NCBI GenBank assembly: GCA_030549175.1
Contig: JAUKUA010000002.1
Span: forward strand, 5,890,001 to 5,954,000
DNA: 64,000 bases
DNA from: Lasiosphaeris hirsuta
Taxonomy: Eukaryota > Ascomycota > Sordariomycetes > Sordariales > Lasiosphaeriaceae
Direction of reading: 5' to 3'
A model generated the notes under the pieces. The model saw nothing but the letters and a program-made list of their open reading frames with translations. It had not been told where the DNA came from and did no database searches. The position numbers and the translations under genes are program-made. Positions 46,022-51,834 of the stretch are shown here, piece after piece (the first letter of the stretch is position 1; each line of letters opens with the position of its first letter).

Positions 46022-49000
46022 CTAACGTATAGCTCCGTAAGATTTCAGAAGCCCGACAATACTATCATCACCTAGGGATCTAGCCATCGCCAAAGGCGAG
46101 ATGCTTTGACACACCAAGGTCGGCACAGCACCATTTTCAAGAAGCAACTGAACTGCAATACGGTCTTGCTTTTCCACAGCTCGGAGAAGAGGCGTCTAGC
46201 TATCGTTAATAAAAGTTCCTACTAAGAGCCAACAAAGATCACTTACACGCTAGAATAACACCAAGAAATTAGTACCAGTAGCCGACTAAATATTACAGAA
46301 TTTCACTTACAAGCTATATGAGCCCCAAGAAGCTAACGTCAGTAGCCGGCTAAATACCACAGCGTAGATCAGATTCACTTACAAGCTATAACAGCCCCAA
46401 AAAGCTAACGTCAGTAGCCGACTAAATACCATAGCATAGATCAGATTCACTTACCCACTATAACAGCCCCAAAAAGCTAACGTCAGTAGCCGACTAAATA
46501 CCATAGCATAGATCAGATTCACTTACCCACTATAACAGCCCCAAAAAGCTAACGTCAGTAGCCGACTAAATACCACAGCGTAGATCAGATTCACTTACAT
46601 CCTATAACAGCCCCAAAAAGCTAACGTCAGTAGCCGATTAAATACCACAGCGTAGATCAGATTCACTTACATCCTATAACAGCCCCAAAAAGCTAACGTC
46701 AGTAGCCGATTAAATACCACAGCGTAGATCAGATTCACTTACATCCTATAACAGCCCCAAAAAGCTAACGTCAGTAGCCGACTAAATACCATAGCATAGA
46801 TCAGATTCACTTACATTCTATAACAGCCCCAAAAAGCTAACGTCAGTAGCCGACTAAATACCATAGCATAGATCAGATTCACTTACCCTCTATAACAGCC
46901 CCAAAAAGCTAACGTCAGTAGCCGACTAAATACCACAGCGTAGTTCAGATTCACTTACATCCTATAACAGCCCCAAAAAGCTAATGTCAGTAGCCGACTA
47001 AATACCACAGCGTAGATCAGATTCACTTACCCACTATAACAGCCACAAAAAGCTAACGTCAGTAGCCGACTAAATACCACAGCGTAGATCAGATTCACTT
47101 ACAATCTATAACAGCCCCAAAAAGCTAATGTCAGTAGCCGACTAAATACCACAGCGTAGATCAGATTCACTTACCCACTATAACAGCCCCAAAAAGCTAA
47201 CGTCAGTAGCCGGCTAAATACCACAGCGTAGATCAGATTCACTTACATCCTATAACAGCCCCAAAAAGCTAACGTCAGTAGCCGACTAAATACCACAGCG
47301 TAGATCAGATTCACTTACCCTCTATAACAGCCCCAAAAAGCTAACGTCAGTAGCCGGCTAAATACCACAGCGTAGATCAGATTCACTTACCCTCTATAAC
47401 AGCCCCAAAAAGCTAACGTCAGTAGCCGACTAAATACCACAGCGTAGATCAGATTCACTTACCCTCTATAACAGCCCCAAAAAGCTAACGTCAGTAGCCG
47501 ACTAAATACCACAGCGTAGATCAGATTCACTTACCCACTATAACAGCCCCAAAAAGCTAACGTCAGTAGCCGGCTAAATACCACAGCGTAGATCAGATTC
47601 ACTTACCCTCTATAACAGCCCCAAAAAGCTAACGTCAGTAGCCGACTAAATACCACAGCGTAGATCAGATTCACTTACCCTCTATAACAGCCCCAAAAAG
47701 CTAACGTCAGTAGCCGACTAAATACCACAGCGTAGATCAGATTCACTTACCCACTATAACAGCCCCAAAAAGCTAACGTCAGTAACTGATTAAATACCAC
47801 AGCGTAGATTAGATTCACTTACCCACTATAACAGCCCCAAAAAGCTAACGTCAGTAGCCGGCAAAATACCACAGCGTAGATCAGATTCACTTACATCCTA
47901 TAACAGCCCCAAAAAGCTAACGTCAGTAGCCGACTAAATACCACAGCGTAGATCAGATTCACTTACCCTCTATAACAGCCCCAAAAAGCTAACGTCAGTA
48001 GCCGACTAAATACCACAGCGTAGATCAGATTCACTTACAAGCTATAAAAACCAAAAGTGTCAGCATCCGAGCAAATATAAATCACTGGACTTTTAGTATA
48101 ATTACCTCATACTCGTAATCTACTTTCGAAGCTTTTACGAGCAGCATTCTGATGCTCTTTTTGGAGCCGCTTTCGATTGCCCAGGCCAACGGTGTGCTAC
48201 CACCACGACTTTCCACTTCAACGTTAGCTGCACTTTTCAATAGAAGCGATACTATTGCCTCGTGTCTATTCAACGCCGCCCAGTGCAACGGTGTCGCATT
48301 GTAAGTGTCCTGAGCATTGATGTTGAGTTCACCCATCCTGACCAGTGACTTGACAGTTACCTCGTCGCCATCCTTTGCGGCGGAGAACAATAGCTCCTCC
48401 GCCTTAGTGTTGAGTTCACCTGTCCTGAGTAGTGACTTGACAGTTACCTCGTCGCCCTCCTTTGCGGCGGAGAACAATAGCTCCTCCGCCTTAGTGTTGA
48501 GTTCACCTGTCCTGAGTAGTGACTTGACAGTTACCTCGTCGCCCTCCTTTGCGGCGGAGAACAATAGCTCCTCCGCCTTAGTGTTGAGTTCACCTGTCCT
48601 GAGTAGTGACTTGACAGTTACCTCGTCGCCCTCCTTTGCGGCGGAGAACAATAGCTCCTCCGCCTTAGTGTTGAGTTCACCTGTCCTGAGTAGTGACTTG
48701 ACAGTTACCTCGTCGCCCTCCTTTGCGGCGGAGAACAATAGCTCCTTCGCCTCGGTGTTGAATTCACTCGTCCTGAGTAGTGACTTGACAGTTGCCTCGT
48801 CGCCCTCCTTTGCGGCGGAGAACAATAGCTCTTTCGCCTCAGTGTTGAGTTTGCCCGTCTTGAGCAGTGATTTGATAGTTGCCTCGTCACGCTTCTGTGT
48901 AGCGGAAAACAGTAATCCCTTCGCCTCGGTGTCTATTTTCCCTGTCGCGAGGAGCATCTCCACCACTGTTCCGTGACCTCCCTTCGCAGCATGTGACAAG

Positions 49001-51834
49001 GGTGTTTGACCAAATTTGTCCGTCATCCTAATATCGACCCTGCTTGTCCCGAGGAGTAGCTCGACGACTGCCTCATCACCCTTTATTGCAGCGGAAAACA
49101 GTAGCTCCTTGACAATGTTATCCACTGAATCGATCTGGGTCTTTTTGCTGAATAGCAGCTTGACTATCCCCTCATGTCCCTTACACACGGCGTACGATAA
49201 TGGTGTCCCTCCAATCTCGTCTTTCAAGTCCACCTTTGCCCCCACCTCGAGTAGCAGCTTGACGACAATCGCATTGCTGCTCCAAACTGCGTATGTTAAC
49301 GGCGTCCGACCGTATTTATCTGCCGAGTTGACTCTGCCTCTCCTCCTGAGCCGCCGTTTAAGAATTTCGAAGCTAGAACCAGTACTTTCGATCAGAAGCC
49401 TAATAACGCCATCAAATCCGTTCCCTGCAGCCCAAGATAATGCCGACCGATAGTGTGTATCGTCCAGGGAATCAAGGTCACTGCCGTCTTTTTTCCGTAC
49501 ACGCTCCACAGCCGCCTCTAGTCCGAAGTAGGAAGTAGCCATAAGGGTGGTGAAGTTTGTAGGGAAATCAATGTTTGTCGTCGTCCAATAGATTCTGAAC
49601 CAAGTTTGGAAACGCTGCGACCTTGTATCGCAGATACGTAGTATCTGCTCTGTCATGTCTTTCTTCGTCTCGGCCGGCAACTCGCGGAAGTGAGCGGCCC
49701 AATTCTTAGCTGAGTAGTCGAGGAAGGTGTGATCGTCCGCATAGTGAGATGGTGATTCATCTCGGAGAGGGTTAGTCTTGAATTTGTCAAGGAGAAGATG
49801 CCAAACGCAGATCTCGGCGAGAATGAAGTGAGATTCCTGTGGCTGTAGCGAGTGTTTCCACCTAAGAGCTTTGGGAGTGCCCTGAGGGAAGAGATCCATC
49901 CTGGAGTTCTGAACTAGGAATTCCCTTGCAGTTTGGTGGAGCAGGTAGATCCTAGAGTTGATAATCGTCACGAAGAGGCCGCAGATCTGCCGCACGTCTC
50001 TACAGAAACGATCCTCGGGTCCGAGATCGATGCCGTCGTCATTAGGCTGGTGATTCTCTCGAAGAACAAGTGCGAAGCTCATCTCTCTCGCAGTGAGGGG
50101 TCGCGATGCCGCTACAACGATGTGGAGTATCTTTACTGCCGTTTCGGGCTCACGGCTCTTGGAAAGAATCCCGTCGTATGCCTCGTCAACAGTCTTGGGG
50201 AGCCGGGAGGCAAGCTTGGATATCTCTTGTCTATTAACGCTGATGGCGCTTTTGATCGAGTCCAGCGTGAGGTGGACCCATAGATATGTTCGGTTAGGAA
50301 CACGTACAAGTTCCCTTAAAAGGACACCTTGCTCGTCTTCTTCAAGCGTTAGTTGTGCTCCAATATCCCGGACTCTAGCTTCGATGAAAATGTCAATCTC
50401 CCTCTCAATCTTTCTCAGCTCAGCGTCGCTTTCCCCGCTCAGATGGATTATCGGCAAGTTCGAGAGAGTAAGGCGATGGAAGCCTCGGCGAATCTCATCG
50501 TAAGGTCGGCTGGTAAGGAGAAACTTCAGGTTGAAATCCGTTGCAGTGCCATATAGGTTACATAATGCTTTGGCCAGCTGAAGCCATCCTTGATCTTTGC
50601 ATTCGTCGATTGCATCCAAAATACATACGATCTCCCCGGCGCTGTCTTCTTTTGCGACTCTGATAAGCGTTTGCCATAGTCCACTAAATGACTTGGTAAA
50701 GATTTCTCTGTCGGCGTCCAGCTGCTCGAGAATTGCATCGGAGAGCAGCTTGCATTTCTGCTTGAAAAGCTGATGTAGAATGCAGCAGAGAGCGCTTGTC
50801 ACACTTGTCTGGTCATCAAAGCCATCCTTGAAGAAGAAATAGCACACTGTCCTCGATTCGGTAGTCGGAAGGACCGAATCAACCAGGTGTTTTGCCAAAA
50901 CAGACTTTCCGCATCCGGGATCGGCAGACACCCAGAGAATTCGGGACAACTTGCTTTCTTGCCAGGCTCGAAAAAGCTCGTGAGATACAAACCAGTCACA
51001 TGTGCCGGGGACCCGATCCGGGTTCAGGTCTTTTCGATCTTGGTATGGTAATGTGTGAAGGCGCCTCAGAATCTCCTTTTCTTTCTCCTCCCAGGCCGGG
51101 CTAGATCCGCGGTCTATTTCCTCTCGTAGCCGCTTGAATGCCCTTGCTTCTCCCTCGCCGTAGAGAAGCGGTATCTGGACGTCGAAGAGTCCAAATAGGG
51201 AGTACGCCTTGTCTTCCTCGCGTGTTGTATTGCGTTTCTCGACCCATGCCATCCTCTCAGAGACACGGAACTCGGATAGGGGGCTACCTCGGAGGGCGCC
51301 GAAGGGAATCCCCGTCGCGCGGTGAATATACTGCTCTAGAGACTTCCGATCCCCAAGGCGCGTGCCCTCCCTGGAGAAGAACTCAACAGATGTTGGGGCA
51401 ATAAGCTCTTGGAGAGTCCACCCGCGGGTGAACCACCTGCTCCCTCTGAAAGCCGACTCCCAGTTCGAAGACGCATTGCCGGTGCTGGAGGTAAGCGTCG
51501 AGACATCCGCGAGATAGACGTAGCATTTGGCTGCGCCGCTATACCAACGAAACATCATATTGATCGCCTCCTGAAGCTCGGTGCTGTTAGATTTTTGGAT
51601 GCAACATGTGTCTTGCCAGAAGTATTTCAGCCCATCACGCCCGGCTTGATCTCCGCAAAACTGAACTTTGGTGTAACCGGCTTTGTTCTTAGCCGTGCCG
51701 TCGGTCACGTCTTCAAAGAGCACCTCTTCCTTGCCCCAGGTGTGTGAAAGTATCGCATACGGTGGAAGCCTGCCGTTAGGGAGGTCCTCGGTCAGTCGGA
51801 TCTCGCCGTTATCGCGACGCTCCAGAAGGCGCAT
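46022..51834 (-). CDS. HET-NACHT-ankyrin NLR containing a tandem intron/microexon array
   Basis: The main exon is 51834-48106 (1243 codons). Residues about 20-200 are a HET domain (YAILSHTWG, FWQDTCCIQKS, MFRWYSGAAKCYVYLADV, RGWTLQELIAP). NACHT follows, with ADPGCGKS (Lys310) and Walker B VCILDAIDEC (Asp407). Ankyrin-type repeats run from about 795. Seven copies of a 29-residue repeat (ELLFSAAKEGDEVTVKSLL and similar) follow, then two normal ankyrin repeats. The exon ends in GAG, phase 0, before a 64-nt intron. Twenty-six 3-nt microexons separated by introns then lead to a final exon 46195-46022, which reads TPLLRAVEKQDRIAVQLLLE and ends SYGAIR-stop, a further ankyrin repeat. With all microexons the protein has 1326 residues; with none, 1300. 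The continuous frame also runs to a stop at 48082 inside intron 1. The class is linked to incompatibility and immune signalling. Confidence 0.85.
46247..48105 (-). repeat. 72-bp tandem array of intron + 3-nt microexon units
   Basis: The period is exactly 72 bp for units 3-25. On the minus strand each unit is a 69-nt intron with GTAAGT donor, CTGAC about 25 nt before the acceptor, and TATAG, then a triplet. There are 26 triplets. From the 5' side: CTT, AGG, GAT, TGG, TGG, AGG, AGG, TGG, AGG, AGG, AGG, GAT, TGG, ATT, TGG, GAT, AGG, AAT, GAT, GAT, GAT, TGG, TGG, CTT, CTT, CGT. Every donor reads ACTTAC and every acceptor CTA on the plus strand. The first intron (48042-48105) and the last two (46196-46246, 46250-46310) have diverged but keep the signals. 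Stops occur in all frames of a unit, so the array cannot be coding without splicing. Confidence 0.93.
48317..48957 (-). repeat. 87-bp coding repeats, seven copies (29-residue ankyrin-like)
   Basis: Anchors of the unit are at 48346, 48433, 48520, 48607, 48694, 48781 and 48868, all exactly 87 bp apart. The middle copies are almost identical in DNA, and the outer ones diverge. Each encodes a helix-loop-helix without the usual ankyrin TPLH turn. Confidence 0.92.

Follow-up and report, generated by a model that had tools for sequence, protein, structure and literature searches.

The minus strand of this locus in Lasiosphaeris hirsuta (Sordariales) raises the question of whether a long chain of introns, separated from one another by exons of a single codon each, is spliced unit by unit and contributes a peptide to the protein. 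The window, i.e., the whole stretch of 64,000 nt that was analysed and to which all coordinates refer unless stated otherwise, carries a HET-NACHT-ankyrin (NLR) gene in which direct reading identified 27 predicted introns enclosing 26 exons, each of exactly 3 nt and in frame; tandem introns with 3-nt exons in an NLR gene, claimed in an earlier note on this DNA, were thereby borne out. Judging from the sequence, it is likely that this spliceosomal intron chain is removed one intron at a time and that the 26 single-codon exons would be translated into a 26-residue loop (LRDWWRRWRRRDWIWDRNDDDWWLLR) placed before the last ankyrin repeat.

The 5′ coding exon (48106..51834, minus strand; ORF and Pfam) encodes a HET domain, an NPHP3_N/NACHT NTPase, a GPIID winged helix and ankyrin repeats, and ends with ...KVDYEYE in phase 0. 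It is followed by a first intron of 64 nt (48042..48105, GTAATT...CTGAC...TTATAG; direct reading and parsing) and by a homogenised array (46311..48041) in which 24 introns of 69 nt (GTAAGT...CTGAC...TATAG) alternate with 25 single-codon exons, as determined by direct reading, TRF, parsing and shuffles. Donors of the 69-nt introns run from 48038 down to 46382 with a period of 72; all 24 core introns start with GTAAGT, have CTGAC 29 nt before the end and terminate in TATAG. TRF reported 24.1 copies of 72 bp with 95% matches and no indels, and the motif TATAGNNNGTAAGT occurs 25 times within the 64-kb window, always at the array, against 0.00 expected (100 shuffles). The array is bordered by a diverged edge intron of 61 nt (46250..46310, GTAAGT...TTCTAG; parsing and consensus comparison), which is related to the 69-nt unit with a z of 6.2 over single-base shuffles. 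By parsing, the 26 ordered exons encoding LRDWWRRWRRRDWIWDRNDDDWWLLR span 46247..48041, the final triplet being CGT at 46247-46249. The last intron (46196..46246, 51 nt, GTAAGT...TTAAC...CTAG) was read directly only; its CTAG acceptor is, on direct reading, the sole one that keeps the ankyrin exon at 46195-46025 in frame. The 3′ coding exon (46022..46195, direct reading) encodes the last ankyrin repeat, TPLLRAVEKQDRIAVQLLLENGA..., with the stop codon at 46024-46022. All these features lie on the minus strand.

Some details given in the earlier note needed correction. It ended the array at 46247, too early, as the 51-nt last intron lies outside that limit and is required to reach the next ankyrin exon (46195-46025). 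It also ascribed GTAAGT, CTGAC and TATAG to every unit, but the first donor is GTAATT, CTGAC is present in 25 of the 27 window introns (the 61-nt intron has CTGGT, the 51-nt intron neither), and the 61-nt intron ends in TTCTAG. Its statements that ankyrin exons flank the array on both sides, both in phase 0 (direct reading, ORF), and that the triplets are free of stops (0/26) agree with our reading. The 26 triplets comprise AGG (7), TGG (7), GAT (6), CTT (3), ATT (1), AAT (1) and CGT (1).

The encoded protein has the NACHT plus ankyrin architecture, with the best Pfam stretches at residues 26-112 (HET), 277-443 (NPHP3_N), 565-644 (GPIID_WHD) and 1149-1235 (Ank_2), and profile scores of 138.8 bits for NPHP3_N and 194.9 bits for Ank_2. 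The NACHT profile PF05729 scored 23.2 bits, below its cut-off of 26.7, and 27.3 bits, above it, in a separate search. Directly upstream of the array, TRF detected an 87-bp (29-codon) ankyrin-like repeat (48321..48888, minus strand) of 6.5 copies with 95% matches at the DNA level over 568 bp, which reaches the level of high internal conservation described for NLRs in PMC4986451 (100 aa or more of repeats with an identity of 85% or above). The gene therefore contains two homogenising repeats of different kinds, the 87-bp ankyrin-like repeat and the intron array.

Motif scans of the L. hirsuta genome brought the number of arrays to five. The four additional ones are built from other introns; three belong to paralogous HET genes and one to an ankyrin gene. 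The scan with CTGACN{5,25}TATAGNNNGTAAGT gave 73 matches (control 0), all within three arrays, and the remaining two arrays came from further motif scans (a GTAAGT-type scan and CTAACN{5,25}TAGNNNGTAAGT). Besides the window array (26 triplets, core unit of 72 bp), the set comprises L009 (C7:3.36 Mb; 36 triplets in the homogenised part, core units of 70/68 bp), L010 (C12:0.25 Mb; 18 triplets, 68 bp) and L031 (C2:0.44 Mb; 15 triplets, 70/69/68 bp), all situated just upstream of HET domains, and L032 (C2:0.35 Mb; 6 triplets, 67 bp with one unit of 85), situated in the ankyrin gene. The unit period differs between arrays and the exon length of 3 nt, for which the scans were set, is constant. None of the 101 triplets of all five arrays is a stop codon. 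The 3′ flanking exon is in phase 0 in all five, at splice sites that we placed ourselves; the 5′ flanking exon is clear for the window and L009, and was placed by us for L010, L031 and L032, the last of which has a possible alternative donor. Diverged edge units still show AG-NNN-GT, with weak donors at the edges of L010 and L031 (GTTCGT, GTTAGT).

The array of L032 (within L032:2600-2860) is more diverged and its position matches that of the window array (VNYSYFPN, triplets, SPLSQAVE). An in-frame TAG is found downstream of it, and because of this the gene may be a decaying copy.

The 3-nt spacing has no counterpart at 4 or 6 nt: with TATAG and GTAAGT only, genome scans gave 29 matches at 4 nt (control 18) and 8 at 6 nt (control 17), without any tandem cluster. 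Four other scans of the genome disclosed no further array with near-identical units, namely those with TATAGNNNGTATGT (17 matches, control 14), TATAGNNNGTGAGT (8, control 22), CTGACN{5,25}TAGNNNGTATGT (5, control 1) and, beyond the arrays already named, CTAACN{5,25}TAGNNNGTAAGT (17, control 1; 6 in arrays and 11 single). The GTAAGT-type scan hit 226 places; less the five arrays (100) and a 13-bp microsatellite (8), about 118 were left versus 107 in the control. Another large GTAAGT array is therefore unlikely to exist, and short ones may have been missed, 100 of the 226 matches being listed. The microsatellite (C7:2956835-2956939) is a tandem repeat of eight copies that includes CAG-NNN-GTAAGT by chance and is not an intron array. 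Near-identical sequences of the form CTAACTA...TTTATAGGTAGTAAGT are dispersed as single copies at C7:413661, C7:4910045, C7:4971562, C11:1250211 and C13:429501, and perhaps represent a transposon or another repeat family.

Retention of the arrays as coding sequence was rejected. In the window the first intron stops the frame after 7 codons and each 69-nt intron ends with an in-frame TAG; elsewhere, core units of 67, 68 and 70 are not multiples of 3, and the consensus intron of L009 is without an in-frame stop, yet shifts the frame.

The four larger arrays combine almost uniform introns with variation at each of the three exon positions. In L010, 17 introns fall into two distinct sequences that differ in one variable column of 65, and L009 has four distinct introns among 35. 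Counting variable columns in units of the commonest length (thus dropping both edge units of the window as well as four units in L009, two in L031 and one in L032), we found 3/3 exon and 14/69 intron columns variable in the window (24 units, p 0.011), 3/3 and 2/67 in L009 (31 units, p 0.00018), 3/3 and 1/65 in L010 (17 units, p 0.00008), 3/3 and 9/67 in L031 (12 units, p 0.004), and 2/3 and 17/64 in L032 (4 units, p 0.19, not significant alone). Combined over five arrays, p is 5e-9; as rows are related, these p values are tests of columns only. Codon pairs one step apart within arrays include 23 nonsynonymous and one synonymous (23% synonymous expected, p 0.015). The residues R, W, Y, D, N and F account for 71 of the 100 triplets counted versus 24.6% from the code, with copies that are not independent. 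Intron variants are significantly linked to codons in L009 and not in the window or L031; L010 and L032 gave no result.

The HET exons of L009, L010 and L031 are 41-51% identical mutually; in 20 other HET windows, no ORF of 150 or more codons scores as high with them as they do with one another. The HET genes with 3-nt exons are located at C12:248,721, C2:441,905, C7:3,367,232 and C7:1,400,077. When the L010 HET protein was compared with the genome (138 matches), ranks 1-4 were L010 itself, L031, L009 and L033, all with 3-nt exons, and the inspected sequences of ranks 5, 6 and 14 had no chain of such exons; at rank 5 the linker is, by eye, read through in one open frame. The remaining ranks were inspected where they fall within L011-L030. 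L033 (L033:500-2300, C7:1,400,000-1,403,000, minus strand) was reached via one TATAGNNNGTGAGT match and two matches of the GTAAGT-type scan. It has kinase motifs upstream, on our reading, followed by a linker with 3-nt exons (GAT, GAA, TAT and AAC, plus GCT by eye) and a HET domain. By eye, the introns between these exons look unrelated, so that the chain is unhomogenised; it is a possible precursor of the arrays.

Of 150 HET places, the surroundings of the best-scoring were examined in 20 windows, which gave no support for arrays of 3-nt exons as a general property of HET genes. They contained 6 AG-NNN-GT-like sites accompanied by a branch-like motif, and the corresponding counts for the 31 spacer lengths from 0 to 30 ranged from 1 to 8. 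TRF detected no array with 3-nt spacing there; L019, L020 and L029 carry other tandem repeats. The genome of L. hirsuta has at least 150 HET-domain places (380 candidates at first look) and 55 NACHT matches, which is a very large recognition repertoire. In L031, a short tandem repeat ORF (YVYTNTTSTPILRLHQY; L031:4258-4623, minus strand) overlaps the end of the HET gene.

The public models P0238 (L010, labelled ‘partial’) and P0242 (L031) have no NACHT and start downstream of the array, and the annotation is therefore without triplets for both. The label ‘partial’ is also attached to relatives from Immersiella caudata and Lasiosphaeria hispida, a weak sign since at least 10 of the 120 listed rows bear it.

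With splice ends removed, comparison of the intron consensus sequences suggests a relationship among the three HET arrays (z 4.1, 4.7 and 6.2) and, weakly, between the window and L032 (z 3.4). A score of 3.1 was also obtained between lineages, for the window and an edge intron of L010. Shuffles were of single bases, and z may thus be inflated by shared GT-rich runs. If the relation holds, each lineage would have inherited its own intron, which was then homogenised within each gene.

Relatives of the window protein provide a view of the same site. Among the 120 listed of 193 protein matches, searched with a regular expression, P0024, P0093 and P0102 have inserts of 61, 101 and 82 residues between the NYEY-like and TPLLRA flanks, where the window has its array; three other matches were unrelated ankyrin stretches, and P0188 shows, by eye, an insert at this site as well. 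The inserts are unalignable, with few columns in common and low identity. No near-identical protein is present among those listed, the nearest named relative being P0048 from Cladorrhinum sp. PSN332 (59% over about half the region). By eye, its ankyrin frame seems to be lost immediately past VNYWY, as could happen to a gene model that runs into an array. These inserts suggest that the site carries a coding insert and speak for inclusion of the triplets; they could also be gene-model errors.

Three other explanations deserve consideration. The whole block could be skipped as a single 1.9-kb intron (48105-46196), an alternative already raised in the earlier note, leaving the triplets untranslated and the array a neutral intronic minisatellite. 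Such skipping keeps phase 0, and the NCBI models of two sister HET genes do omit the array. Neutral copies, however, need not retain donor, acceptor, 3-nt spacing and stop-free triplets across five arrays with different introns, nor would one expect from them that exon columns vary far more than intron columns in four of the five, or that diverged edge units keep AG-NNN-GT, even though some donors are weak. The coding inserts of relatives at the window's site further disfavour block removal, which in our judgement also seems to leave fewer residues than usual between repeats, and we regard it as quite unlikely.

An unlikely, though slightly more credible, scenario accepts splicing one by one and translation but makes the array a mere by-product of tandem duplication, with loop length and sequence drifting without benefit. 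The intron units are indeed near-copies (2 distinct of 17 in L010, 4 of 35 in L009) and the low-identity inserts of relatives suggest loose constraint; diverse triplets on uniform introns, the nonsynonymous excess (p 0.015 only) and the same design in two recognition-type gene lineages argue the other way. Lastly, introns might have been inserted singly between existing codons in the manner of introner gain, rather than as a unit duplicated with its codon. Uniform introns between different codons would be explained by this, and L033 has several introns between single codons; against it stand the few codon types arranged in runs (AGG 7, TGG 7 and GAT 6 of 26), the association of intron variants with certain codons in L009 (below significance in the window and L031) and the contiguous location. 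Runs, linkage and contiguity point to duplication of blocks together with their codons, and single insertion appears improbable, the least credible of the three. Duplication of an intron plus three bases, the origin proposed in the earlier note, stands as the source of intron copies, but alone it leaves unexplained the differing triplets on near-uniform introns and the 3-nt exons between unrelated-looking introns in the paralogous HET gene L033.

If the introns are removed one at a time, the 27 predicted events would take place by intron definition and probably stepwise from 5′ to 3′, as two splice sites separated by 3 nt could scarcely be occupied simultaneously. Each triplet would join the upstream exon and then serve as the end of that exon. 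Introns of 60-70 nt are normal in fungi. With 27 splicing events in series, failure may be frequent, which counts against this reading. Imperfect splicing would give isoforms lacking one or more residues, still in frame because the exons are of 3 nt. At the DNA level, recombination or unequal exchange between identical introns could add, remove and reorder whole codons without risk to the frame, with selection on the peptide presumably keeping the triplets diverse. By analogy with other fungal NLR and HET genes, the function is presumably in nonself recognition. We tentatively propose, as a possibility rather than an expectation, that codon-cassette diversification is common to the two kinds of recognition genes: near-identical introns would act as recombination handles shuffling single codons in DNA, and any subset of the exons, of which the window gene has 26 and the longest array 36, could be joined in frame and without a stop, giving a repertoire of loops per locus. 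The arrays may serve to rewrite a recognition loop residue by residue.

Codon-sized microexon arrays as a kind are already known from Tuber. Alternatively spliced exons of 3 bp were reported in 2012 for the NACHT-ANK family of Tuber melanosporum, their number being given as multiple, tens or dozens (Iotti et al. 2012, Fungal Biol 116:261-275, as cited in PMC3689799, PMC4986451, PMC10197012 and PMC9815663), and the remark in the earlier note that no equivalent had been described was wrong. Among the papers listed in searches of the open-licence literature we found no other fungal arrays of 3-nt exons besides those of Tuber. New, as far as searched, are the arrays in HET genes, the second fungal order or lineage, the presence of several intron families within a single genome, the chain that is not homogenised and the contrast of uniform introns with diverse codons. 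If transcripts confirm the splicing, single-codon exons are not a truffle curiosity, and two or more lineages of recognition genes in fungi contain them; in one fungus, arrays would then coexist with an unhomogenised chain and with an array that may be decaying, and offer natural tests of the minimal exon size that the spliceosome handles in series and of whether immune-type receptors diversify codon by codon.

Near-identical or nested introns occur in fungi as introner elements and stwintrons. In the window 3 nt separate consecutive introns throughout, and neither the zero-length exon nor the nested intron of recursive splicing and stwintrons was found. The 3′ half of the window unit was seen only at the array in the genome scan, with a pattern that demands a following GTAAGT donor, so that lone copies would be missed. 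Microexon genes of Schistosoma, which encode secreted, variable proteins, carry tiny in-frame exons whose lengths are different multiples of 3 nt, and share with the window gene runs of tiny in-frame exons; they differ in that the window exons are of 3 nt, with near-uniform introns, in a presumably intracellular receptor. The Xlr2 transcription factor of Trichoderma virens contains one regulated microexon, described in PMC11121469 as the first functional one in filamentous fungi, a priority at odds with the Tuber reports. It is, like ours, a microexon in a filamentous fungus, but a single exon and not an array. In Podospora, according to PMC4986451, the WD, ANK and TPR repeats of NLRs are conserved save for variable positions, again in recognition genes, and the 87-bp block of the window gene (95%) resembles them. 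In those genes, however, the variable codons are embedded in a coding repeat; in the window array it is the intron that repeats, and each exon consists entirely of one variable codon. The closest likeness is to Tuber: a NACHT-ankyrin receptor with dozens of 3-bp exons (here predicted from splice signals) in the C-terminal recognition part. Alternative splicing is reported for the Tuber genes. The L. hirsuta receptor in the window differs in having a HET domain, and arrays of this fungus are also situated upstream of the HET domain in HET genes.
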